Shown here piece by piece: positions 3,631-19,570 of a DNA stretch of 64,000 nt (within the stretch, counting starts at the first letter, position 1; every line of letters starts with the position of its first letter). The stretch is from Ignavibacteriaceae bacterium (GTDB lineage: Bacteria; Bacteroidota; Ignavibacteria; Ignavibacteriales; Ignavibacteriaceae). A program made the translations under genes and the position numbers. The DNA is taken from the NCBI GenBank assembly GCA_013388545.1, contig JACAFB010000047.1, positions 62,001 to 126,000 of the forward strand. The letters are read 5' to 3'. The notes beneath the pieces are model-generated. The model was not told the DNA's origin, ran no database searches, and saw nothing but the letters and a program-made list of their open reading frames with translations.

Positions 3631-4863
3631 TCACCTGGGATTTATTTTTCTGCTGCTTGTTCTTAACCATTCTTCTGCCATCGCGTTTAGTTCCGGTGAG
3701 ACTTTAAAGTTTCGGAAGCCGTTTAGTTCGGCGATAGAAAATATTCCTTTTTCCTTTACAACTTCCAGCGTTGCTTCTTCATCTTTGTAAATAACTCTGT
3801 AAAAATAACATTTACCGCTGCGTATTCTACCAGCATAACTGCGAATACAATTCTGCTGTCGTTTTGCCCACGAGATCAACTCTGTTTCTGTGGTAATTGC
3901 TGTAATGTATTCGTTTTCTTCAATCGGAGGTTTAGGGAATATTTCACGTTTTTCCCATTTACTTTTTACTTTTTCATCAAACTTTTTCTTTGCTTCATCA
4001 AGTCGGGATATTGAAATACTTTTTGGAAGTGCAACCTTCCATTGTTTTGATTTATGGTGCATCTGCAAAAGCATTGACGCTTTAAGTGCATAGCGCTCAT
4101 CTGCAGCTAATTCAAATACAAGTCTGTCATTAATACTTTCAAGAACTTCTGTATAAACAGAAACAAAATGAATGAGTTTTTTATTGATTTTCTTGGCAAA
4201 TGAAAGTACCTGTAAAATTCTTTCTTTTATTTCGGCTTTAGCCATCAAAACTTTTTTAAGCCGCAAAAGAAGTTTAATATCCAGCATATTGGGCTGTACC
4301 TTAGAAAATATTTTTACCATTCTTGCTTCTTCAGGAAATCCGCAAAGCCCTATTACTTCTTTTCGCTTTGTCTTTATCATTCTCTGAAAGAGATCAATGT
4401 TAGCATAGTACAGAAAAGACGGATTAAACTTCTCCATATTGACAATGATATATGCAAGTGCTGGATTTGTTTTCATAAGAGAAATAAAATCATCACCAAT
4501 CATTTTAACAGCACCGACAAGCTCCCAATGTGAGTCCGGAAAACGAGATACCTGTTCAATTATCTCAGTCGGAATTGAAAGAAAGAATCTCCTAATTACT
4601 TCCGGATCAATTTCTTCTTTTTTCTTTTCCTTTTGTTCCAGCTCTTTCTCAAATAAATGTATCTGCTGCGGTTTCTTTTTTTTCTTAGGAAGGATTATTG
4701 CTTTTTTAGTTACATCAATTGAAGGAAAAATTTCTATCCATATATCTGTATCTGCAGCGGAGACAAATCCTCGCCATATTGGATAGCCTGCTACAACTAA
4801 AACGTAGTCTTCACTCTTAATCACAAATAAGTTCGTTTTGTCGAATGATTCGAAAGGATTCAT
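3631..4863 (-). CDS. PcfJ-like protein
   Basis: A 410-residue protein of unknown biochemical role. The C-terminal third resembles the PcfJ-like domain first named on enterococcal conjugative plasmids: residues about 325-400 contain ELISWAKRQQNCIRSYAGRI, then GKCYFYRVIYKDEEATLEV and a conserved SIAELNG strand. The middle (about 100-300) looks helical, and a Lys/Glu-rich stretch lies near 60-85. No membrane segment or signal peptide is visible. The gene stands alone, with about 180 bp before the HsdR fragment, and is bracketed by the two repeat copies, which suggests arrival as a cassette. Family assignment is moderate; the function is unknown. Confidence 0.65.
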   Translation of the reverse strand: MNPFESFDKTNLFVIKSEDYVLVVAGYPIWRGFVSAADTDIWIEIFPSIDVTKKAIILPKKKKKPQQIHLFEKELEQKEKKKEEIDPEVIRRFFLSIPTEIIEQVSRFPDSHWELVGAVKMIGDDFISLMKTNPALAYIIVNMEKFNPSFLYYANIDLFQRMIKTKRKEVIGLCGFPEEARMVKIFSKVQPNMLDIKLLLRLKKVLMAKAEIKERILQVLSFAKKINKKLIHFVSVYTEVLESINDRLVFELAADERYALKASMLLQMHHKSKQWKVALPKSISISRLDEAKKKFDEKVKSKWEKREIFPKPPIEENEYITAITTETELISWAKRQQNCIRSYAGRIRSGKCYFYRVIYKDEEATLEVVKEKGIFSIAELNGFRNFKVSPELNAMAEEWLRTSSRKINPR

Positions 4864-4896
4864 ATTCTTCGTAACAAATTTTAATTAAGTGATAAG

Positions 4897-4992
4897 CACC
4901 AACCAAATTGGCACCCCTGTTAAAAAATTGAAAACATGAAGGGAGTTTACTTTCTTAAAATTAACTATGTACAATTAGTTTTAAAATTACAA
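4897..4992. repeat. Diverged direct repeat, copy 2 (upstream of the PcfJ-like gene)
   Basis: Second copy of the repeat at 3485-3580, about 1.41 kb away in the same orientation. GAAGGGAGT followed by a TTTCTTA block, and the right-end AGTTTTAAAATTACAATTA, are the best-preserved parts. It ends about 35 bp before the PcfJ-like start codon on the minus strand. The spacing to the start codon matches that of copy 1 to the HsdR fragment. Confidence 0.5.
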
Positions 4993-5075
4993 TTATAATT
5001 AGGAAAATGATTCAACTAAGTCTAACATAAAATATTATATACCTTGATAGTGAATTTTTGTCCAATGATACGCAA

Positions 5076-5960
5076 TCATAAATCAAAAAATCCTGAAGAG
5101 ACAAATAAATTACGTAGCTGGTTAAACTGATTTTCATTTAATTTCTTTAGAGGAAGTCTTGGTTCGCCTCCAAAGTAACCCGCCATATCCATTGCGGCTT
5201 TCAGTCCCGCTACTCCATAAACAGAAGTAACAGCCCGATTAAGCTGAACTAATTTATTCTGCAGAGCCAACGAATCCCCAAGCTTACCCTTGTTATAAAG
5301 TTCAATAACATCAATACACTGTTTTGGAAGAACGTTTGCAAGCGCTACTATACCGCCTTTTGCACCGACACATAAACCTGAGTAAATAATTGAAGCTGTA
5401 CCAACCAGAACATCAAAATTATTTTCAGTCATCGAAACATATTCAATAATCTGAGTTATTACCTCACTGCTGCTTTTTATACCGGCTATGTTTTTATGTT
5501 GAGCTAAGGCTGCAACTGTTTCAGGTTCAATTGTCACATTGGTGAATTTTGGGACGTTATAGATTATCAATGGTACTTTTATCGAATCCGCAATCGCTTG
5601 AAAATAACTCAGAAGCTGATCGTGTTTCATTTCATTTTTATAAAAAGATGGTGTTAATACAAGTACATAGTCTGCTCCTTCATCTGCTGCGATATTACTG
5701 AGTCTGATGGTATCCTTAATTGAATCTGAACCGGTGCCGGCAATCAAAGTTTTATCAGGAGATGAAAATTCTTTCACTTTGCTGATGAAAGCAACTTTCT
5801 CATCAAAAGTAAGAAAAGCGCTCTCACCATTTGATCCGAGAGCAACATATCCAGAAAGATTGGTTTCATTTAACTTATCAATGTTGAATTTTAGCTTTTC
5901 AAAAGATATTTCACCATTAATAAAAGGAGTTGTTATCGGGGGATAGATTCCTTTAAGCAT
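5076..5960 (-). CDS. 4-hydroxy-2-oxoglutarate aldolase (DapA superfamily)
   Basis: A 294-residue TIM-barrel lyase of the DapA/NAL superfamily. GSNGES (42-47) is the carboxylate-binding loop, Tyr134 (YNVP) the catalytic Tyr, and Lys162 (AGIKSSS) the Schiff-base Lys. Segments such as GGIVALANVLPKQC and GYFGGEPRLPL are closer to animal mitochondrial HOGA than to bacterial dihydrodipicolinate synthase. HOGA splits 4-hydroxy-2-oxoglutarate into pyruvate and glyoxylate, the last step of hydroxyproline breakdown. The gene follows a proline-dehydrogenase-like gene by 12 bp, which fits that role. A generic pyruvate aldolase or DapA remains possible. Confidence 0.8.
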   Translation of the reverse strand: MLKGIYPPITTPFINGEISFEKLKFNIDKLNETNLSGYVALGSNGESAFLTFDEKVAFISKVKEFSSPDKTLIAGTGSDSIKDTIRLSNIAADEGADYVLVLTPSFYKNEMKHDQLLSYFQAIADSIKVPLIIYNVPKFTNVTIEPETVAALAQHKNIAGIKSSSEVITQIIEYVSMTENNFDVLVGTASIIYSGLCVGAKGGIVALANVLPKQCIDVIELYNKGKLGDSLALQNKLVQLNRAVTSVYGVAGLKAAMDMAGYFGGEPRLPLKKLNENQFNQLRNLFVSSGFFDL

Positions 5961-5972
5961 AATTTCATTTTT

Positions 5973-6902
5973 CTATTTATTAAAAATGTTTTTTATAACG
6001 AACCAAATATTAGCCGGTCTTTCTGCAAGGCGCCGAACGTACCAGGGATACCATGCTTTACCATAACTTATAAGGACGTAAAAATTATACCCTTCCTTTG
6101 CAAGACGTAATTGCTCATTCACTTTTATACCATAAAGCATCTTAAACATCAGAGAATTGCGTTGAAGATTTTTTTGCTTGGCATAAAGTTCAATACGGGA
6201 TATTAAATTGCTGTCGTGCGTAGCAAATGCCGGAGATAAATTGTGTGTAGAATATGCATCAATCATTTTTTTTGAAAGCGAAAAGAAATTCTCATCTACA
6301 TCTGTTTTTTTAGTAAAGGCAATCGTTGCAGGTTCGCGGTAAGCACCTTTTACAAGTCTGATCAAAGGAGAATACTCAAGTAATCTTTTCAGATCAGAGT
6401 CAGTTCTGAAAAGATATGCTTGCAAACATAAACCAACATTTGAGTAGTTATTTTTAATTTGGCAATAAAATTCGATTGTCCTATCAACATAGCTGCTTTG
6501 TTCCATATCAATCCAGACAATATTATTAAATTGCTTTGCTTTCTCAGCAATTACTTTAAAATGTTCATAAGCCGCGTCGAATGAAATATCGAAGCCAAGC
6601 TGTGTAAGCTTAAGAGAAATTTCGGTTGCCAAATTGTTTTTATTTATCTCAGCAAGAGCGGTCAGGTAATTCTGAGTTACGATTTCGGCTTCTTTCAGTT
6701 CTGTTACATTTTCTCCAAGGTAAGTGAAAACTGTTTTTATTCCGATCTCTTTAAGTTTTTTTGCTTCGCAAATTGCATCTTCTAATTCTTCGCCGGGCAT
6801 AAACCGCCTGACTGCTTTTTTCACAAATGACCATTGAGGTACGTTCTTTTTCAACCATTCATTTTGTGAACACCACAGAAGTATATTTCTTGAAATGCTC
6901 AT
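5973..6902 (-). CDS. Proline (or hydroxyproline) dehydrogenase
   Basis: A 309-residue FAD-dependent TIM-barrel enzyme of the monofunctional ProDH type; there is no P5C dehydrogenase domain. VKGAYREP (184-191) and the C-terminal RRLAERPAN (290-298), whose Arg pair and Glu hold the substrate carboxylate, are both present. Three residues before the Arg pair is Trp287, where many proline dehydrogenases have Tyr. A change at this site is linked to hydroxyproline use in the animal enzyme PRODH2. It is the first gene of a two-gene unit with the HOGA-like aldolase, so hydroxyproline is a reasonable alternative substrate. Confidence 0.85.
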   Translation of the reverse strand: MSISRNILLWCSQNEWLKKNVPQWSFVKKAVRRFMPGEELEDAICEAKKLKEIGIKTVFTYLGENVTELKEAEIVTQNYLTALAEINKNNLATEISLKLTQLGFDISFDAAYEHFKVIAEKAKQFNNIVWIDMEQSSYVDRTIEFYCQIKNNYSNVGLCLQAYLFRTDSDLKRLLEYSPLIRLVKGAYREPATIAFTKKTDVDENFFSLSKKMIDAYSTHNLSPAFATHDSNLISRIELYAKQKNLQRNSLMFKMLYGIKVNEQLRLAKEGYNFYVLISYGKAWYPWYVRRLAERPANIWFVIKNIFNK

Positions 6903-6940
6903 ATTATTTTAGACATAATGAATTAGTGATGATCATTATT

Positions 6941-7822
6941 TCATTTTAAAATAACATCAATTACTACCGGCATGTGATCGGATGGAAATTTTCCATTAAA
7001 TGTTTCGCCAATCACAGCATGCTGAATAACTTCTACTTTATCATTGATAAAAATATAATCAATTTTATTTCCGGGAATTAATTCGTTGCTGAATCCGTTG
7101 TAAGTTATATCCGAGCCATATTTATAAAAAACAGATTTATCTTCAGAATCATAAAGTTTGATCTTGTTATTTTCTTCATTTGAATTTGTAATTATGTGAT
7201 AAACGTCTGAATCTTTTAATGAGTTAAAATCCCCTGTTAAAATTAAAGGAATGTCTTCAAGCTCAGATATAAGATTTATAATAAATGAGGCACTATTTTT
7301 TCTTGCCTCAATGCCGACATGATCTAAGTGAGTATTAAGAAAATAGAACTCTTTTGCCGGATTTATTCTTAATATTTTTGAAACTGTAATTATTCGTTTA
7401 CACACAGCATCCCAGCCCATCGAAACTTTATCCGGGGTTTGAGAGAGCCAGAAGGTTTTATAGTCAAGCACTTTAAATTCAGAATGTTTATAAAGCACAG
7501 CCGAGAATTCTCCTGAAAGATTACCGTCATCTCTTCCAACTCCGATCCATTTATAATCAGGAAGCATCGCTGTTAAATCCTCGAGCTGATTTAACAAGGC
7601 TTCCTGAACTCCAATAATATCCGGCGAATGGAACCGAATAACAGAAGCAACCAGTTCCCGCCGGTTCTTCCATGAATTAGTATTAGATTCGTTTTTATCA
7701 TCATACCTGATGTTGTATGACATCACTCTAAGCTTATCCTGAGCTGAAGACTCCGCCGAAAGGCTTATAATGAATGCAATGAATAACAGATAAATTAAAG
7801 AAGAATTAAACGCTGATTTCAT
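6941..7822 (-). CDS. Secreted endonuclease/exonuclease/phosphatase-family protein
   Basis: A 293-residue EEP-fold hydrolase with a signal peptide (hydrophobic 9-22, cleavage near SSAQ). Catalytic motifs in order are SYNIRYD (metal-site Asn), QEAL (metal-binding Glu), the LDHVG loop, GDFNS and the terminal SDHMPV His/Asp pair. The full active site looks intact. Such exported proteins act as phosphodiesterases or phosphatases on nucleic acids, sugar phosphates or lipids, and the substrate cannot be told from sequence. It lies 38 bp upstream of the ProDH gene and may share its promoter, but no metabolic link is clear. Confidence 0.85.
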   Translation of the reverse strand: MKSAFNSSLIYLLFIAFIISLSAESSAQDKLRVMSYNIRYDDKNESNTNSWKNRRELVASVIRFHSPDIIGVQEALLNQLEDLTAMLPDYKWIGVGRDDGNLSGEFSAVLYKHSEFKVLDYKTFWLSQTPDKVSMGWDAVCKRIITVSKILRINPAKEFYFLNTHLDHVGIEARKNSASFIINLISELEDIPLILTGDFNSLKDSDVYHIITNSNEENNKIKLYDSEDKSVFYKYGSDITYNGFSNELIPGNKIDYIFINDKVEVIQHAVIGETFNGKFPSDHMPVVIDVILK

Positions 7823-8158
7823 AAATATTCATTTTTTCTTTAAAGAATTTTTTTTATGTTTGCTTTGAGAGCTTGAGAGCAATTGTGTCATTTTTAATCA
7901 TTCTCAGTCAAAAATAACCAACGAATCAAAATAAGAAAAGTAATTCTGTACTTTTTTGCTATTATCATTAAGTAAAAAGTACGTACTAAAAATTCAAAGT
8001 CAAGTTGATTCGTTAATTAGTGATTAAAAATAAGCACATCAAAAACTCTCTGAATTGGTACTTTCTTTGAGGTAAATTAAATCAAATTTATTAGTTGAGA
8101 GTTTCTCTCCGACCGAAGGGTTACTCAATAAGTCAAAGTAACACGGAGCATTTTAAAT
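7823..8158. other. Divergent intergenic region (336 bp)
   Basis: Gap between the EEP gene (minus) and the curlin-repeat gene (plus). It must hold both promoters. Its main visible content is the nested inverted repeat at 7890-8031. An ACGGAG ribosome-binding-like sequence lies about 11 bp before the ATG at 8159. No small ORF with a convincing start was found. Confidence 0.6.
7890..8031. repeat. Nested imperfect inverted repeat
   Basis: Three arm pairs share nearly one centre (about 7961-7967). ATTTTTAATCA at 7890-7900 pairs with 8021-8031 (11 bp). AACGAATCAA at 7920-7929 pairs with 8005-8014 (10 bp). GTACTTTTT from 7948 pairs with AAAAAGTAC ending at 7982 (9 bp). The whole could fold into a long hairpin with internal loops. 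It may be a MITE-like remnant, a structured leader RNA or an operator cluster. Confidence 0.55.
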
Positions 8159-9085
8159 ATGCATTTCATACTCAAATTAGCGGCTGCTTCGCTTCTTATC
8201 ATTACTTCTCTCTCCGCCCAAAACCAACAAAATATTTTTCAGTCTGATATAAACGATGTAACTTTAATTACTCAGGAAGGCTCTTTAAACAAAGCAACAG
8301 TAGAGCAATTAAATTCAAGTCTTCATCAGGAAAAGTTATTCACCTATATTCATCAAAATGGTGTAGGTAACGAAGCCGAAGTAAAAATAGCCGGAGTGGG
8401 CAACCAATTCAGTGAAGTTTATCAGACAGGTGATTTTAACAAAGCGGTGATAACTCAGATTGGTGAATCGAACATAACAAAAATTGTACAGGAGAGCGAT
8501 CAGAATTTTGCCGAAATAAAACTTTTCGGCTTACAAAATACGGCCAGGATTTTTCAAATCGGATTCAGCAATAAAACATTACAGGAACTTGGCTCAGTCC
8601 GCAAACCACCAGGTTCGGATAATCTTTTTGAAATTTCGCAGATCGGCAATTTGAATGATGCAAAACAAATTTTAAGAGCTTCTTCAAGTTTTGCAAACAG
8701 CTACAACACTGCAATTATTAAACAAAAAGGAAATCAAAATACTGCTTTTCAACAAATCGGAACTGAATCAGAAATCTCCTCCAACAATATCTTAACAATC
8801 AATCAAACAGGCTCAGAAAACATATCCCAGCAGGTTATTCATTTTGGCAAAAACAATTCAGTGTTTTCATTCCAGGATGGAATTGGAAATGAATCCTATG
8901 TTTTTCAGCTTGGAAATATGAATGATGCGGAGGTATATCAATACGGAAGTTTAAATTATTCTTTCATCAATCAAAATGGCACCGAAAACTTTGCTTACGT
9001 TTTTCAAAGTGGTGACGGTAATTTTTCAAGGATAAACCAGGTTGGTTCTTCGAATTATGCCAGTGTAATTCAGAAATCATTTTGA
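8159..9085 (+). CDS. Curlin-repeat (functional-amyloid-like) secreted protein
   Basis: A 308-residue protein with a signal peptide (1-20, ending SLSAQ). More than ten degenerate curlin-type repeats follow, with pattern Q-x-G-x-x-N-x-A-x-[VI]-x-Q; examples are TQEGSLNKATVEQ, YQTGDFNKAVITQIG and NQVGSSNYASVIQ. Each repeat would form one strand-loop-strand turn of a beta-solenoid amyloid, as in CsgA/CsgB. The repeats are more diverged than in E. coli CsgA. At 308 residues it is about twice the usual curlin length. No csgE, csgF or csgG export genes are in the window, so secretion would rely on genes elsewhere. A terminator follows at 9114. Confidence 0.8.
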   Translation: MHFILKLAAASLLIITSLSAQNQQNIFQSDINDVTLITQEGSLNKATVEQLNSSLHQEKLFTYIHQNGVGNEAEVKIAGVGNQFSEVYQTGDFNKAVITQIGESNITKIVQESDQNFAEIKLFGLQNTARIFQIGFSNKTLQELGSVRKPPGSDNLFEISQIGNLNDAKQILRASSSFANSYNTAIIKQKGNQNTAFQQIGTESEISSNNILTINQTGSENISQQVIHFGKNNSVFSFQDGIGNESYVFQLGNMNDAEVYQYGSLNYSFINQNGTENFAYVFQSGDGNFSRINQVGSSNYASVIQKSF

Positions 9086-9874: not shown

Positions 9875-11113
9875 TTATTCTATTACCGGGCCCAGGTTCG
9901 TAGCACCAGGGTAAAACAAAAATGCAATCGCAAATGCAAGTACGGAAATAATTATTCCATACATAAAGATGTTGTAGCAGATACGAAGGTTTTTATATTT
10001 AAGTCCAAGAATCTGACCGAGATAGTAAAAATCTTTTATCATACTTTCGTAAAGGTAATCTTTATCGTTGATCACCTGTTTCATTCCCCATGAAAAATCT
10101 TCAAGTTTCATATTATAGAAATTTCCAAAGAACATCAGGTTTGCCCTCTTATGTTCAATATCTTCTTTTGTGAATCTCCCAGATGTAATTTTCGGGCGTG
10201 TCACAATTATTGCATAAATCAGGGTTGAAAGACTGGTTAGAGTCAGTATTAAAGTTGGTATGATAAGATGTGGATTTGCTTCGAGCTTTCTTAACATTAA
10301 ACTAACAATGATTGTAATTATCAAAGTATTAATACTAATCATAATATTGGCTTTGTTATCGGCCATACTGCTGAAGTCAACGTGAGTCCGCATTACGTTT
10401 CTGAACATCGTCTCAACGCCTCGCTCAGTTTTTGGTTCTTTATCTTTCTTGGCCGGATTAATTTCATGATCACTCATAATTTTTTCCTCGCTGCGATTCT
10501 TTCCATTTGATTTTTTTAATTCTTTCAGGTACTTCTTTTCCATCTTAAAAACATTTTCATTCTTTGTTTCACCATACTGATTTCTGGCATATTCAGTAAA
10601 AAAATGATGATCCTTCATGAATTTAATATTGATCTTATACCACTCTTCATCTGAAAAAACTTTATTACCTTTTTTTTCAAGTTCCATTCTGAGCAGAAGA
10701 TTTTTTTCCTTGAAGTGTTTTGTTCCGAGATGAATTAAATCAGCATCACAGATAACTTCTTCCAATTTATTTTTCGGCTTATGAGGAATACGTGTGGCGT
10801 TAATGCATCCGATTACTTTTTCAATTTTATCTTCAGGATAATAGTTTTTCTGAAGAAAATCTTTTGCATATCGGATGCTTACATTTTCATGCCCTTCACA
10901 TAATTCAACATACCCCACGTCGTGAAACAACGCAGATATTTTAGCGATCTCAATTTCTTCATCGGTTAATCCAACACTCCTGCCAATTTCTGTTATTACT
11001 CCGACTACCTCAATTGTGTGTGCTAGATTATGATAGAAATTATTACTTGTATCATTAGTTCTGAAAATATTATTGATGTGTTCTTCAACTTTTTTAAGAA
11101 TCTCAGAATTCAT
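9875..11113 (-). CDS. HD-domain protein fused to a Pycsar-effector-like (PycTM/DUF5706) membrane domain
   Basis: A 412-residue, two-part protein. Residues 1-200 form an HD phosphohydrolase domain with metal ligands His32, His64-Asp65 and Asp125 (HNLAHT, FHDVGY, DADLIHL). After a charged linker (200-230), residues 232-412 match the Pycsar membrane-effector type: MRTHVDFSSMADNKANIMIS leads into TM helices at about 256-275 and 283-304, with a third at 383-401. In Pycsar, such effectors damage the membrane when they bind cCMP or cUMP. HD fusions have been proposed to sense or degrade nucleotides. No cyclase gene is adjacent. The nearest cyclase, at 17.4-19.4 kb, is of a different architecture. 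Confidence 0.8.
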   Translation of the reverse strand: MNSEILKKVEEHINNIFRTNDTSNNFYHNLAHTIEVVGVITEIGRSVGLTDEEIEIAKISALFHDVGYVELCEGHENVSIRYAKDFLQKNYYPEDKIEKVIGCINATRIPHKPKNKLEEVICDADLIHLGTKHFKEKNLLLRMELEKKGNKVFSDEEWYKINIKFMKDHHFFTEYARNQYGETKNENVFKMEKKYLKELKKSNGKNRSEEKIMSDHEINPAKKDKEPKTERGVETMFRNVMRTHVDFSSMADNKANIMISINTLIITIIVSLMLRKLEANPHLIIPTLILTLTSLSTLIYAIIVTRPKITSGRFTKEDIEHKRANLMFFGNFYNMKLEDFSWGMKQVINDKDYLYESMIKDFYYLGQILGLKYKNLRICYNIFMYGIIISVLAFAIAFLFYPGATNLGPVIE

Positions 11114-12645: not shown

Positions 12646-15297
12646 TTAGAACATCATCGCGGTTTGAAAATAAAAAATTGTCCTTTCGGGTGAATTGGCT
12701 ATACAGACCGAGAAAACCAATCCTCTTTTCAGATAACCGAGCCATATTCCTCCTCCAAGTGAAGGATGCCATTTTTTTGATTTTATATTTTCAACCCATA
12801 CTCTTCCGGTTTCAGCAAAAATAGAGATGCCTGCTTCGCCTTTCAGTATAAATTTTATCTGTGTAAGTGAGCTTCTTATTTCAGACTGAAAAAATAATTT
12901 TGAATCTCCTGCAAACCTTTCACTGCTATAGCCGCGGAGATTATCTGCACCGCCAAGAAATGCAAACTCATAAAATGGCATTCGACCCCAAATTTTTTCA
13001 GCACCAATCCGTAAAGCAAAAGTACTTTCTGTAAAAAAAATAAAGCCAACATACTTTCTCACATCAATTGCTGCTTTGCTGAAAACAAATTTATTTTTAA
13101 AAACAACCGGTGTTAACTGAGCAGAAATATTTAAGTACATCCCTTCTGTTGGGAAACGCAGATTATTTCTTGTATCATAATTCAACGACGAGAATATACT
13201 TAAAGAAGTAAAACCATTTAAACTATAATTATCTAATCCACTTCCAATGTATTTCGTATTTATAAACGGTTTAATTATATCCTGGTTATTAATTTGAGTG
13301 GATGAAAGACTAAATAATGGGCCAGCTTTAAATGACAAATTATCAATCAAATAAAATTCAAGCAAAGCCGAGCAATTAATGAATCGGCGTTTGATAAAAT
13401 AAAAATCCTGCTCTTCAAGATTTCTTTCATAGCCGGTTTCATTTCCAAATCCAAAATAATTTGCATAGTACCTGTTGGCTGCTGAAATTTCCAAAAGAAA
13501 ATTTACATTATCGGATAGTGCTTTCGATTTATAATTGATAGAGGAGAATATTCCTCTTGAAATCGAAGTGTAATAAGCAGAAGCCTTCAAATAATATTCA
13601 TAAGGAGATTTCCTGAAGTTAAAGTGAGTATGATCAATTGTTCCTCCGATAGAAATTCCATTGCTGCCGTTATAATCCAGGTATGGAAGTAGCATTGTTC
13701 TTGAGTAACGGTCTTCCTGCAACGGTTCAAATTTTTGAGAATCATCTTCAGGGTCCGGTATTTCTGAATCGTTATAAATTGTTCCAGGGCCAAAAACGAT
13801 TTCAGTTTTTTTTCCGTGATCATAAATCAAAGTTTTATTTTCAGAATCCTGAAATGGTAAAACGAGAAGTAAGTGTCCCTCAACTTTTGATACATCCACA
13901 AAATGATCTGCACCATCGCCGCCAATGATTCTGATCAAAGGAGAAGAATATACAGTACCTGATACAAATACCGAATCATCTCCATCAAGGCAGTGAATCC
14001 TTATTTCTTTTGTTATTGCATTATCAAATGTTTTTTGGAAATAAAATTCCCTTTTGATAAAAGGGTCTTTGTCCTTTTTGTAGAATGTAACTCTTGTTTC
14101 TTTATTGCTAAGTCTTTCAACCAGAAAGAAATCATTTTTAATGCTGCCGAAAACATCCACAATTTCGTTTATGTGATTGTAATAATCATAAATAATTTTA
14201 GAAAGATTATTTCTTCTTACATTCAATTTACTTCTTATTTCATCAGCACATATTTCATAATGCTGAGGAGGAAGTTTCTTCAAAGCTCTCTCTATTAACT
14301 CATCAGAGAATTTATTACTGACAAAGGCAGCGATTGAATCCCACTGACTTCGATTTAGTTCAGGAAGTATTCGCCTGTCCAAATACCTTCCGTTCCAGGT
14401 TAGAAATTTTATATCGGGGAATTCATAATCAAAATGGTTAAGCTGAGGAACAAAATATTCAGCAATTGATGGAAGCAGACCATCAAATTTAGAAAATGCC
14501 TGATCACGATCACGAGGAATTGGTTTCCAGATTTCTTTCCCGTCAAGATTATATTTTGCCCACCTCCACTGATCCATATGACGATCCCAATCGCCAATAA
14601 TAAGGTCAATTATTCTGGCCTTTAAATAATCTTTCGCATCAATTTGTTCATTTCGCTTTTCTTCAAGACGATTAAGTAATTTATAAGTGCCCATAATTTT
14701 TTCAGCACCTTTGAAGAACTGTTGCGAGTTATCTTCAGTTTCGTCAGGATGAATTTCAAGAGTTCCTAGCAAACCACCAAAATCATTTCTGAACTCACCA
14801 AGCAGTGAATCATCAGGTAAATAATAAATTGCAGGCGGTGAATGAAGTAAATTCATTGCATCCAGTATCTCGGAAACAATCAATGAAGCACCTGGATGTG
14901 ATGAACTGATCTGATCTTGAAGTATTTCTTCTACAATTGATTCTCGTAATTCGGGAGATAAAATTTTTTCAGGGTTTTTATCGATTGATCGGAACTTCCA
15001 AATGTTTTTGTCAGCATCCTGAAATCTTAGTGAGAGCGTTTGCATCCCACCTCCCCTTTCAATTGGCTTCAATCCGCCTGCAAATTGTTTAAGGTCAAGA
15101 ACTTCAACACTTAATTGACTGATCCACAAGTCACGCCAATGTTCCCCAAAAATAAATTTATGCAGACTACCTGCCTGGTATTCAGGATTTGGGATGATTT
15201 CAATTACCTGAGTTGAATCATCCTTCGGGAATGTATTTTTATTAAAACAAATTAAAGAGCAAATCAAAAAAATCAGAACCATTTTATTCTTTTGCAT
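12646..15297 (-). CDS. Outer-membrane D15/BamA-like barrel with periplasmic kinase-like domain
   Basis: An 883-residue exported protein (signal peptide about 5-24). The C-terminal 350 residues form a surface-antigen (D15/Omp85-type) barrel, including GGADNLRGY. The N-terminal 380 residues contain DLIIGDWDRH (231-240) and PRDRDQAFSK (261-270). These align with the catalytic Asp loop and metal-binding Asp of FAM20/HipA-type atypical kinases (pattern G-[ND]-x-D-R-H, then D-x-x-x-[AG]-F). Upstream, IWKFRSIDK (99-107) could supply the nucleotide-binding Lys. It is 15 bp downstream of a lipoprotein phosphoesterase, and the two probably act together at the outer membrane. The barrel call is strong; the kinase idea is inference from motifs. 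Confidence 0.75.
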   Translation of the reverse strand: MQKNKMVLIFLICSLICFNKNTFPKDDSTQVIEIIPNPEYQAGSLHKFIFGEHWRDLWISQLSVEVLDLKQFAGGLKPIERGGGMQTLSLRFQDADKNIWKFRSIDKNPEKILSPELRESIVEEILQDQISSSHPGASLIVSEILDAMNLLHSPPAIYYLPDDSLLGEFRNDFGGLLGTLEIHPDETEDNSQQFFKGAEKIMGTYKLLNRLEEKRNEQIDAKDYLKARIIDLIIGDWDRHMDQWRWAKYNLDGKEIWKPIPRDRDQAFSKFDGLLPSIAEYFVPQLNHFDYEFPDIKFLTWNGRYLDRRILPELNRSQWDSIAAFVSNKFSDELIERALKKLPPQHYEICADEIRSKLNVRRNNLSKIIYDYYNHINEIVDVFGSIKNDFFLVERLSNKETRVTFYKKDKDPFIKREFYFQKTFDNAITKEIRIHCLDGDDSVFVSGTVYSSPLIRIIGGDGADHFVDVSKVEGHLLLVLPFQDSENKTLIYDHGKKTEIVFGPGTIYNDSEIPDPEDDSQKFEPLQEDRYSRTMLLPYLDYNGSNGISIGGTIDHTHFNFRKSPYEYYLKASAYYTSISRGIFSSINYKSKALSDNVNFLLEISAANRYYANYFGFGNETGYERNLEEQDFYFIKRRFINCSALLEFYLIDNLSFKAGPLFSLSSTQINNQDIIKPFINTKYIGSGLDNYSLNGFTSLSIFSSLNYDTRNNLRFPTEGMYLNISAQLTPVVFKNKFVFSKAAIDVRKYVGFIFFTESTFALRIGAEKIWGRMPFYEFAFLGGADNLRGYSSERFAGDSKLFFQSEIRSSLTQIKFILKGEAGISIFAETGRVWVENIKSKKWHPSLGGGIWLGYLKRGLVFSVCIANSPERTIFYFQTAMMF

Positions 15298-16548: not shown

Positions 16549-17433
16549 TTATTTATTTTTATAAAAGGTAAGAATAGCTTTCCCATCTCCACCTTCATCT
16601 GAGATGACCATAGTGCGATCATTAAGAAATGTAATTCCTTCGGGTTGGGGATGAAAATCAGAATTTAGTTTTCGACAATCGAGCACATTTCCATCACGAG
16701 AAAGCTCAAGAACTGATTTACTATCGGAAGAAAGTACGAAAATAGTTTTTACTGAAGGATGTATTTCAATTCCGGAGGGAGAAAAGTTTTTTAACCCATA
16801 TTTTTTTTTAAGATCATCCAGTGAAATTAGGAACCGTGGCTGCTTGAGTAATTTTTTTTCAGTCAGGCTGAAGGAATAAATTGCTTTTCTGCCTTTAAGA
16901 TTTTTACCGGCAATTCCTTTGCAAGCTATTAACAAAGAGTAGGTTTCGCTATCATAACATAGTCCTTCGACATCGAAATCTGAAATTAATCCGGTATCAA
17001 AAATCCTATAGTCCGAATATCCATTGTTTTTCTGTTCAGTGAATTCAATAATCTTTCCTGAACTTGTAATAATGTAAAAAGCCCTTGTGGCAATTGCGAG
17101 TCCTTCAAAATCACCTCTGACAGTTTCCTTCCCTATTCTGAATTTTTTAATAATCTTACCATTTTCCTCATCCAATTCATATACAACACCTTTTTCATCA
17201 TTGTGTGCAAAGAGTCTCCCATCAACGCTTAATGCTAAACCGGATATTTCCCTAAGATCATTATCGAGAAAATATTTTTGTTGATCTGCCGAATTAAAAT
17301 TATATCTTGAAAGCCAGGATTTTTCTGTCTGCGTTGGTCCGGAAAATATAAAGGAAAAAGAAGAAGAAATTAAAAAAAATATCAACAAGCCTTTGGTTAT
17401 AAAATGTAAGTTAAGGAAATCAGGAATTTTCAT
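16549..17433 (-). CDS. SdiA-regulated-like beta-propeller protein
   Basis: About 295 residues with an N-terminal signal or anchor (about 10-32). The repeated strand pattern fits the SdiA-regulated/phytase-like propeller family: LREISGLALS, GDFEGLAIA, DVEGLCYD, SPSGIEIHP and QPEGITFL each begin a blade. Such proteins may bind or hydrolyse phosphate esters, but no catalytic residues can be assigned. The start is taken as ATG 17433; a GTG at 17448 is also in frame. Either start overlaps the upstream cyclase gene, so the two are translationally coupled. Confidence 0.7.
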   Translation of the reverse strand: MKIPDFLNLHFITKGLLIFFLISSSFSFIFSGPTQTEKSWLSRYNFNSADQQKYFLDNDLREISGLALSVDGRLFAHNDEKGVVYELDEENGKIIKKFRIGKETVRGDFEGLAIATRAFYIITSSGKIIEFTEQKNNGYSDYRIFDTGLISDFDVEGLCYDSETYSLLIACKGIAGKNLKGRKAIYSFSLTEKKLLKQPRFLISLDDLKKKYGLKNFSPSGIEIHPSVKTIFVLSSDSKSVLELSRDGNVLDCRKLNSDFHPQPEGITFLNDRTMVISDEGGDGKAILTFYKNK

Positions 17434-19366
17434 TATAAACACCAACACGTCTCATTAGATCTATAAACCTGTCATTTTCAAAAAGTTTTTTGTACTGAGG
17501 ATTTTGATGAATGAATATCAGACCACCAAGCCGTTCTTCAAAAGCTTTTTCAAGGTATTCAAACGCTTTATCATTTTCTTCCAGGGCAAAATAAAAAAGT
17601 GCAAAATCCAGATTAAGGGATGTATCCTTCTCGCTTACACTTCTGATCTTAAGCTTTCTGAGATAATCTTTTGCTTCTTTGAGTCTGCCGCTTTTTGCAT
17701 AAAGAATTCCAAGCTGAGTTACGGCTTTAAGTTCACTTCCTGCGAGGTTTTGGGCATGTTTAACTGTTGAAATGGCATCATCAATTTTTCCTAAAGCAAA
17801 CAGCGCCCAGGCTTTTATATAAAGCGCAAGCCTGAAAGTCGGATCAATTTCAAGTGCTGTATTTGCTATCCGAAGAGATTCAGAATAATTCTCATTAAAA
17901 AAATATCCTTCTGATAAAGTAACTATGATCGGCAAGTTAAAAGGATCCTGATTGTAAGCAAGCTGAATTTCTTCCAGGGCCAATTCCTTTTTTCCCTGAG
18001 ATAAATAAAAAAGATAAAAAACGTGATGAACATCGGCAGAACCGGGACTTAAACTAACAGCTTTTCGGAATTCCAGCTCTGCCTCCTTGAAATCCCATTC
18101 GTAAAAAAGTTTAACTAAGGCAAGTGAATAATGTGAAGCAGCAAGCTCGCTGTCAATTTCCATTGTTTTTAATGCATAACTTTTAGCCAATGGGTAAGCC
18201 TCTTTAGGTCTGAGAATTCCAGTTGCTCCCATAAAGACATAACAAGTTGCAAGTGCTGCATAAGGATATGCGAATTCAGGTTCAATTTCAATTGCTTCGC
18301 GGAACAGCTCGACAGCTTTTTTAACAGATTCTGGATTCCATTTATTCCAATAAAATCTGCCTCTAAGAAAAATGTTATAAACCTCCATATTTTTTGTTGG
18401 AGTTTTTATCATCGGAGCGTGACCTTCCTCAGCAGTAAGTTTTTCTCTCATTTTCTTTGCAATTGTCCTTGAGATTTCATCCTGAACTTTGAAGATATCT
18501 TCAAGGTCACGATCATAGGTTTCTGACCACTGATGGTAACCATCGTTTGTAGTAATCAATTGGGCTGTAATTCTAACCTTATTTCCCTGCTTTCTCACGC
18601 TTCCTTCAAGGACAGATTGAACGCCAAGTTGTTTCCCGATTTCCCGAATATCTTTCCTGGTGCCTTTAAATGCAAAAGATGATGTTCTTGAAGTCACAAG
18701 AAGTCCATCAACTTTAGAGAGTGCATTAAGAATTTCTTCAGTTATACCGTCGCTAAAATATTCATTTTCCGGATCAGGACTCATATTTACAAACGGCAGT
18801 ACTGCAATAGATTTCTTTTTATCGACTTTTTTTCCTCTGATTAGCGTCGGGTCAGGAATAACGATTCCATCAGCCTCAACAGCGTAAACTTTAACAGGAT
18901 CTTTAACATTTTTAAGCTCAAAACTTCCCAGGAATAATGAATGAATTGATTTTTGATTTTTTAATTCATCATTTACTTTATCTGAGATCAAGACTGAACC
19001 ACCAACAGCAAGCGATTCAATTCTTGAGGCCACATTAACTCCATCACCAAAAACACCTTCGTCGTCATAAACAACATCCCCAAGGTGAATACCTATTCTT
19101 ATCGGAATAACTGGCTTCTGCTGTAGTTCCTGTTGAATTCTAATAGCTGCATTCACCGCTTCAATAACGCTTCCAAAAATAGAGAGAGTGCCATCGCCAT
19201 AATATTGAAGGATCTGCCCCTGATGTTCGAATACAACTCTTTCAAGCACCTGTTTATGTTTATCTCGTAATGTTCGCGCCAGCTTTTCATTTTCCTGCAT
19301 CATGGCAGTATAACCGACAATATCGGTAAACATTATTCCTGCCAGCATCCGAATTTGTTTATTCAT
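17420..19366 (-). CDS. Class III nucleotidyl cyclase with TolB-like and TPR domains
   Basis: About 648 residues in three parts. The first is a class III adenylate/guanylate cyclase domain (about 5-165): FTDIVGYT and YYGDG supply the two metal Asp, and GDGVNVASRI supplies transition-state Asn/Arg. The second is a TolB N-terminal-like domain (about 185-300; AVLPFVNMS, YFSDGITEE, VLEGSVRK). The third is a C-terminal array of TPR repeats. No membrane segment is evident, so it is probably cytoplasmic. ATG 19366 is preferred over TTG 19375. The product (cAMP or cGMP) cannot be fixed from sequence. It overlaps the propeller gene downstream. Confidence 0.85.
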   Translation of the reverse strand: MNKQIRMLAGIMFTDIVGYTAMMQENEKLARTLRDKHKQVLERVVFEHQGQILQYYGDGTLSIFGSVIEAVNAAIRIQQELQQKPVIPIRIGIHLGDVVYDDEGVFGDGVNVASRIESLAVGGSVLISDKVNDELKNQKSIHSLFLGSFELKNVKDPVKVYAVEADGIVIPDPTLIRGKKVDKKKSIAVLPFVNMSPDPENEYFSDGITEEILNALSKVDGLLVTSRTSSFAFKGTRKDIREIGKQLGVQSVLEGSVRKQGNKVRITAQLITTNDGYHQWSETYDRDLEDIFKVQDEISRTIAKKMREKLTAEEGHAPMIKTPTKNMEVYNIFLRGRFYWNKWNPESVKKAVELFREAIEIEPEFAYPYAALATCYVFMGATGILRPKEAYPLAKSYALKTMEIDSELAASHYSLALVKLFYEWDFKEAELEFRKAVSLSPGSADVHHVFYLFYLSQGKKELALEEIQLAYNQDPFNLPIIVTLSEGYFFNENYSESLRIANTALEIDPTFRLALYIKAWALFALGKIDDAISTVKHAQNLAGSELKAVTQLGILYAKSGRLKEAKDYLRKLKIRSVSEKDTSLNLDFALFYFALEENDKAFEYLEKAFEERLGGLIFIHQNPQYKKLFENDRFIDLMRRVGVYNENS

Positions 19367-19570
19367 AAAAATCAAATGAAAAAATCATTATAACTTTAAA
19401 CTAAAATTAATTATGAAAATCTTAAAGAAAAGCACTGATTGATGACCGTAATTAAACGATGATCAAAGTGAGAAATCCCCCGTCAAAAATTGCTGAAAGA
19501 GAAAAAACAAAAGTTCAACAAATCTGCCGTAGGGATTTCCGGAAAAATATCAGATCACATCGCTTTAATA

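Follow-up and report, generated by a model that had tools for sequence, protein, structure and literature searches.

A barrel protein with a paired aspartate motif

The 64,000-nucleotide stretch of an Ignavibacteriaceae bacterium analysed here (the window, from contig JACAFB010000047.1) encodes on its minus strand an 883-residue protein in which an Omp85 outer-membrane barrel is joined to a predicted kinase-like domain, and which lies directly downstream of a metallophosphoesterase (MPE) gene; coordinates are collected in Table 1. A preliminary description had singled out this protein for two motifs resembling the catalytic and metal-binding aspartates of FAM20C and HipA-type kinases. Both are read on the minus strand within residues 231-270 (window 14607-14488), DLIIGDWDRHMDQWRWAKYNLDGKEIWKPIPRDRDQAFSK, where GDWDRH occupies residues 235-240 (14595-14578) and RDRDQAF residues 262-268 (14514-14494), and the numbering given there for D238, D263 and D265 was correct. 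The D15-type barrel claimed for the same protein is likewise present in its C-terminal part.

The motif pair is not a chance occurrence, as a regular expression describing it matched none of 4,907 non-family open reading frames (ORFs; stop-to-stop, at least 80 codons, 875,367 residues) in the fetched loci without those of CotH and HipA. In an alignment of the window protein with 44 of the best 120 homologues (42-47% identity), D236, D238, R239, H240, D263, R264 and D265 are invariant.

Of 7,994 candidates scored, 4,021 are homologues at E<=1e-3, and a profile search found the family in 72 of the 198 genomes sampled from the window's phylum; it also occurs in metagenome-assembled genomes labelled Gemmatimonadetes, Calditrichaceae and Deltaproteobacteria. 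Two sets of loci were compared. The first comprises the best 80 of 587 relatives found with the patterns DWDRHxDQ and WxPIPRDRD, so that motif conservation within it is partly due to selection. The second consists of profile-search loci, the 30 best and 20 regions picked for being barrel-less, low-scoring or CotH-adjacent, and its search profile was built from the pattern-selected set. The profile alignment holds 87 of 88 rows (a partial row, L029:2886-3740, 285 aa, was dropped), and the 131 rows used for conservation omit four of the 135 distinct ORFs, namely the copy in the window and three ORFs with a twin already discarded as redundant.

A Pfam scan of the full protein revealed the Omp85 barrel (residues 594-843), ShlB below threshold, and nothing else, and an NCBIfam scan gave Omp85/BamA models only, all under cut-off. 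The full-length AlphaFold2 model (pLDDT 84.4, pTM 0.78) has 16 strands of at least 9 residues between residues 532 and 881, and a Foldseek search with the whole model retrieved BamA (6.5e-14) and TamA (9.7e-12). POTRA families are absent from the Pfam scan of the 883 residues, the N-terminus being formed by the kinase-like domain instead, and a POTRA or other assembly-factor N-terminus was rejected since the predicted fold is kinase-like. A low-confidence helix is modelled at residues 3-16, within the predicted signal sequence, and among the 46 unfused kinase-barrel ORFs in which a Met precedes the domain, a crude hydropathy score marks 40 as having a hydrophobic N-terminus (nine further ones had no Met to score). 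Because the strand number is even and the N-terminus appears to be exported, the kinase-like domain would face the periplasm. In the linker between domain and barrel, R456, D464 and D468 are invariant in the 45-sequence alignment. The linker also contains the sequence GGDGADHFV (residues 459-467), which resembles the RTX nonapeptide repeat pattern; a calcium site may order this domain.

Predicted fold and putative active site

Structure prediction and conservation of the aspartates had been put forward in the preliminary description as checks on the likeness to FAM20/HipA-type kinases, and the likeness is supported both by the predicted fold and by residues in kinase order. The AlphaFold2 model of residues 30-400 (pLDDT 93.8) has a bilobal, kinase-like fold. 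Its best matches among solved structures are CotH, PI4KII, CtkA, HipA, actin-fragmin kinase and FAM20, and by predicted fold the domain belongs to the FAM20/CotH/PI4K/HipA branch. Judging from the model, we consider a kinase fold of the N-terminal domain close to certain.

In the full-length model, the loop carrying D236, D238 and H240 follows helix 221-234 and precedes strand 244-251, and D263 and D265 are positioned after the hairpin 244-251/254-261, such that R103, K107, D128, E181, D238, H240, D263 and D265 are predicted to occur in the order expected of a kinase. Among distinct relatives with a residue at the respective position, R103 is kept in 122 of 127 and K107, four residues further on, in 124 of 127, while D238 (121), H240 (119), D263 (123) and D265 (121) are each scored against 130. 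The complete octet is present in 117 of 131 distinct relatives, and in 32 of the 44 distinct rows that the profile search contributed, a set partly picked for oddness. G82, G83, G84 and Q86 of the glycine-rich loop are invariant in the 45-sequence alignment. The putative catalytic and metal-binding aspartates of the proposed FAM20C/HipA pattern are kept, whereas the expected ATP-site lysine is not obvious. K101 was rejected for this role, being variable (of 88 rows, 16 have Lys here and 41 Val), and the corresponding place in beta-3 appears to be taken by R103, which, to judge from the strand order, perhaps pairs with D128 instead of a Glu.

By motif the domain is nearest to CotH, and it lies outside the curated families. 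Thirty CotH ORFs of the window's phylum give the consensus GxWDxY...iPyDyDntfG, the counterpart of GDWDRH...IPRDRDQAF; the GxWD and IPxDxDxxF signatures of CotH are present in the kinase-like family, and its putative catalytic loop aligns in register with the CotH GxWD and HipA DDHxKN loops. The HH score against the family was 28.3 for CotH (21 domains), compared with 13.2-16.7 for six unrelated control families. Scored with the family profile, the 21 CotH domains reached a mean of 3.2 bits versus -2.1 for neighbouring ORFs (p=3e-13, rows not independent; the comparison set being the 587 of 972 ORFs that gave a score), and two of the higher "neighbour" scores in fact stem from one CotH gene present twice (L188, L003). 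In two genomes of the window's order, a small CotH kinase gene and the kinase-barrel gene are divergent and separated by about 1.3-1.9 kb (L188:6572-7705, on the same contig as L003; also L189).

No curated Pfam family covers the kinase-like region at cut-off. Neither CotH (PF08757) nor Fam20C is matched at cut-off by the 87 family members scanned or by the full 883-residue protein, which has no CotH match at E<=10, and the HipA_C profile is not matched by the 87 members either. The only Pfam name of the kinase clan among the weak matches of these members is DUF4135 (one member, E 0.036), 25 of 36 families being listed and the others single-member and weaker than 0.17; the assignment of DUF4135 to that clan is taken from a Legionella pan-kinome study (PMC9758233). 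DUF6765, the only Pfam match of the window's domain at E<=1 (E 0.029), was taken as chance. A profile search of PDB sequences yielded four matches at E<=10. In CtkA (E 0.21) the DRH loops are in register, yet this match is suggestive at best, because 3f44 (E 0.18), 4s3k (E 0.28) and 1x87 (E 1.7), which we take as chance, have similar E-values; PI4K is absent at this threshold.

CotH has been characterised as an atypical kinase related to Fam20C with an unusual ATP site (PMC12189002). Unlike CotH (PDB 5jd9, 5jda), which carries the N-lobe signature RGN...KK, the present family has GGGxQT...RSxxKDP and is fused to barrel and phosphatase. It differs from FAM20C, the Golgi casein kinase, and from FAM20A in its outer-membrane barrel anchor and in the Arg at the beta-3 Lys place, and from HipA in its predicted location, HipA being cytoplasmic. 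Type II phosphatidylinositol 4-kinases match the modelled fold but not the family profile at the level of PDB sequences.

Phosphoesterase partner and gene arrangement

The phosphatase which the preliminary description had placed beside the barrel gene is the PF00149 MPE, on the same strand. Its product contains the five motifs GD.G, GDN.Y, GNHD, HHP-like and GH.H, which we take to be the metal-site pattern of purple acid phosphatases/TRAP, and all six of its PDB matches at E<=1 are to these enzymes, at weak E-values of 0.0066-0.035. With TRAP/ACP5 it shares GDNxY, GNHD and GHxH; unlike TRAP/ACP5, to which its similarity is weak, it sits on or beside the kinase-barrel protein.

In 66 of the 135 distinct family ORFs, MPE, kinase-like domain, linker and barrel form a single polypeptide of about 1,250 aa, as in Dyadobacter fermentans (L079). 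Another 51 consist of kinase, linker and barrel, and three have kinase and barrel but no linker that scored. In the remaining 15 the kinase-like domain has no barrel in its frame (10 alone, 5 with linker); of these, L031, L047 and L059 lie at the end of a contig or locus or in a disrupted frame. Among the matches listed in the phylum profile search (90 rows from 89 reading frames, one of which gave two rows), 51 frames reach 1,200 aa or more, a length matching that of the fused form. In a genome of the same class (L178), the three modules are three adjacent genes, two of them with lipobox-like N-termini (Table 1). As the same modules occur as one, two or three genes, we argue that they act together.

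This arrangement also bears on a different view of the protein, as an Omp85 assembly or translocation factor in which the N-terminal domain substitutes for POTRA in handling substrate chains and its kinase likeness is structural heritage. A barrel closest to BamA/TamA and the general role of Omp85 proteins speak for it, as does a hypothesis offered for the "noNterm" subfamily by Heinz and Lithgow 2014 (PMC4104836). We nevertheless find it very unlikely, given that the 15 ORFs mentioned have the domain without a same-frame barrel and that conservation is among the highest at the residues of the putative active site.

The same study describes two Omp85 subfamilies with related barrels, "Metallo" (with an N-terminal PF00149) and "noNterm" (PMC4104836). 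Both share the POTRA-less Omp85 barrel with our family, and "Metallo" also the N-terminal PF00149; compared by description only, the two are likely to be its fused and unfused forms. PF00149 was there termed a metalloprotease, and "kinase" occurs 0 times in the main text (PMC4104836). The terms phosphatase, metallo-, phosphoesterase and kinase are absent from the main texts on the F. johnsoniae BAM complex (PMC12611786) and TamL (PMC12045153), and R. anatipestifer OMP76 was rejected as a family member, its barrel being TonB-receptor-like in the part of the source available (PMC10281475). As far as their available portions go, the Legionella pan-kinome treats the FAM20/CotH cluster and notes no Omp85 fusion (PMC9758233), and a review of bacterial phosphorelays treats CotH and HipA and notes no Omp85 kinase (PMC12189002). 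In the open-licence literature searched, we found no description of an Omp85 barrel carrying a kinase domain or of a kinase-barrel/phosphatase system.

Some loci contain a second kinase-like gene. The fused Rufibacter proteins L059, L065 and L073 have none of the five phosphatase motifs and an intact kinase octet, with the second gene about 2-6 kb away. Barrel-less kinase-like genes adjoin each other at L177 (3436-5091, minus strand; 5162-6775, plus strand) and L176 (3629-8648); some of these copies keep DWDRH, and one neighbour has DWSRR with RDRD retained. By analogy, such pairs resemble an active kinase beside a pseudokinase partner, an arrangement presumably comparable to FAM20C/FAM20A.

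Upstream of the MPE gene lies an SdiA-regulated/phytase-like propeller gene, which was found in 37 of 100 loci (one contig, L003 and L188, being counted twice) and in 35 of these 37, as in the window, is co-directional and no more than 400 nt upstream; it is likely a third part of the operon. A gene whose HD-domain product also carries PycTM, a Pycsar effector domain, is present in 47 of the 100 loci, in 14 of them within 400 nt; in the window, this gene and one for a class III nucleotide cyclase with weak PycC matches flank the locus. The kinase-barrel locus may have a link to cyclic nucleotides. Further off, at 8159-9085 on the plus strand, a 308-aa exported-looking protein shows, by eye, curlin-like Q-x-G-x-x-N repeats.

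Table 1. Features of the kinase-barrel locus in the window and of the three-gene locus L178
Feature	Residues	Position	Strand	Remarks
Kinase-like/Omp85 barrel protein	1-883	12646-15297	-	ORF, 883 aa; PF01103 E=5.9e-14
Signal sequence (predicted)	~1-24	15226-15297	-	charged start, then hydrophobic run
Kinase-like domain	31-378	14164-15207	-	predicted fold
Glycine-rich loop GGGMQ	82-86	15040-15054	-	predicted beta1-beta2, strands 77-82 / 87-93
Beta-3 strand R103...K107	103-107	14977-14991	-	predicted strand 99-107; Arg replaces the kinase ATP-binding Lys
Acidic residue D128	128	14914-14916	-	predicted alpha-C helix 121-131; kept in 125/128
E181	181	14755-14757	-	predicted hinge strand 176-182; kept in 126/127
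Catalytic-loop motif GDWDRHMDQW	235-244	14566-14595	-	D238 predicted catalytic Asp
DFG-position motif IPRDRDQAF	260-268	14494-14520	-	D263/D265 predicted metal ligands
All-beta linker domain	379-531	13705-14163	-	predicted secondary structure; contains GGDGADHFV
GGDGADHFV	459-467	13897-13923	-	in linker domain
Omp85 barrel without POTRA	532-883	12649-13704	-	16 predicted strands
Metallophosphoesterase, 400 aa		15313-16515	-	15 nt upstream of barrel gene; PF00149 2.7e-8
SdiA-regulated/phytase-like beta-propeller		16549-17448	-	PF06977 4.9e-10; upstream neighbour
HD-domain protein with PycTM domain		9875-11113	-	
Class III nucleotide cyclase with TPRs		17420-19375	-	weak PycC matches
L178 kinase-linker gene		4449-6185		lipobox-like N-terminus LAGC
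L178 MPE gene		6178-7410		lipobox-like N-terminus ALSC
L178 barrel gene		7389-8594		

Proposed role in the cell envelope

Of the possible explanations, we favour as probable that this is an Omp85 barrel protein with a periplasm-facing kinase of the FAM20/CotH/PI4K/HipA type, which likely phosphorylates an envelope substrate and is likely opposed by the MPE. The motifs, their conservation, the barrel and phosphoesterase homologies and the repeated linkage of the modules on which this draws are observed, and the kinase fold, the 16-stranded barrel and the signal sequence are predicted. In such a scheme the barrel would pin the kinase at the membrane, a task that a lipid anchor or transmembrane helix would take over in barrel-less relatives. 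D238 would act as catalytic base, D263 and D265 would bind metal and nucleotide phosphates, and R103 and D128 might stand in for the usual Lys-Glu pair. The TRAP-like phosphatase would undo the phosphate mark, so that kinase and phosphatase together could form a local on/off switch outside the cytoplasm. Catalysis by the domain we consider likely, and a kinase-phosphatase switch plausible, with the balance slightly in its favour. Evenly poised, in our judgement, is the wider proposal of a dedicated extracytoplasmic phosphorylation switch in several phyla, with a new barrel kinase and a same-chain TRAP-like phosphatase as a bacterial counterpart of FAM20C-ACP5 that lacks the beta-3 lysine.

A number of points weigh against this reading. 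No kinase family reaches cut-off in the Pfam scan of 87 members, and solved kinases give the model modest TM-scores (TMq 0.26-0.40 over the ten top Foldseek rows) and share 5-14% sequence identity with it. The HH score of HipA (15.6, 30 domains) lies inside the control range, so that HipA membership by profile is unsupported, only 11 of the 30 HipA domains gave a family-profile score, no better than neighbours, and one unrelated neighbouring ORF, at 8.8 bits, exceeds 19 of the 21 CotH domains. The canonical ATP-binding Lys was not found in beta-3, where the conserved R103 is predicted to stand, and the usual metal-binding Asn after the catalytic Asp is replaced by Gln (Q243, in 86 of 88 rows). 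On the phosphatase side, the five-motif set is complete in only 53 of 75 MPE domains or fragments, and the MPE is not obligatory, as beyond the window it directly adjoins only five of 55 unfused kinase-barrel ORFs (many loci offering too little flank to judge). The octet is altered in 14 of 131 distinct relatives, the family is absent from 126 of the 198 phylum genomes in the profile search, and ATP is scarce in the periplasm.

The exchanges of the beta-3 Lys for Arg and of the Asn for Gln mean that a non-kinase reaction, or mere binding, is possible. A kinase fold may serve another transfer that depends on ATP or a nucleotide, such as AMPylation, glutamylation, or transfer of phosphate from some other donor, for instance a lipid pyrophosphate; SelO and SidJ are known kinase-fold enzymes with other chemistry. 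Scarcity of ATP at the predicted periplasmic location, the conserved R103 and the near-invariant Q243 would fit such chemistry. As the nearest folds (CotH, PI4KII, CtkA, FAM20, HipA) are all kinases, the D238...D263/D265 set is retained in most relatives and the recurrent partner is a phosphoesterase, we regard this as unlikely.

Twelve of the 14 relatives with an altered octet belong to the profile-search set of 44. Ten of the 14 have residues at all eight sites, and nine of these ten have lost at least two; R103 and D265 are lost jointly in five of 40 complete profile-set rows and singly never (Fisher p=1.5e-6, kinship uncorrected). Since the losses are correlated, we read the octet as a putative catalytic site decaying as a whole in some paralogues. 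The same paralogues, which lose D238, H240, R103 or D263/D265 yet keep the sequence of the fold, suggest that non-catalytic use may occur in the family, and together with the missing beta-3 Lys they would suit a pseudokinase, that is, a binding module which would sense a nucleotide or an envelope component bearing phosphate, and would gate the barrel or act as a scaffold for the phosphatase. This is rather improbable, as all eight residues persist in the great majority of distinct relatives (117 of 131) and correlated losses fit a catalytic site freed from selection.

With the envelope kinase preferred, the reading of the preliminary description holds and can be widened to a new kinase-like family, predicted to lie outside the cytoplasm on an outer-membrane barrel, whose phosphatase is fused to it or encoded alongside. 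To our knowledge, few kinases act outside the bacterial cytoplasm. According to a review of type IX secretion, exported P. gingivalis proteins (gingipains) are phosphorylated by as yet unidentified kinases (PMC10202324). Should the domain be a kinase, the family would represent an unrecognised envelope kinase in 72 of 198 sampled genomes of the phylum and in the metagenome-assembled genomes of the other groups named above, in many of them with a phosphatase on the same chain, and two orphan Omp85 subfamilies would probably find their explanation in it. The barrel-less paralogues, as lipid- or helix-anchored domains, would suit structural and assay work. The family would also provide a bacterial relative for the FAM20/CotH secretory kinases, and would raise the question of which phosphate donor the periplasm offers.

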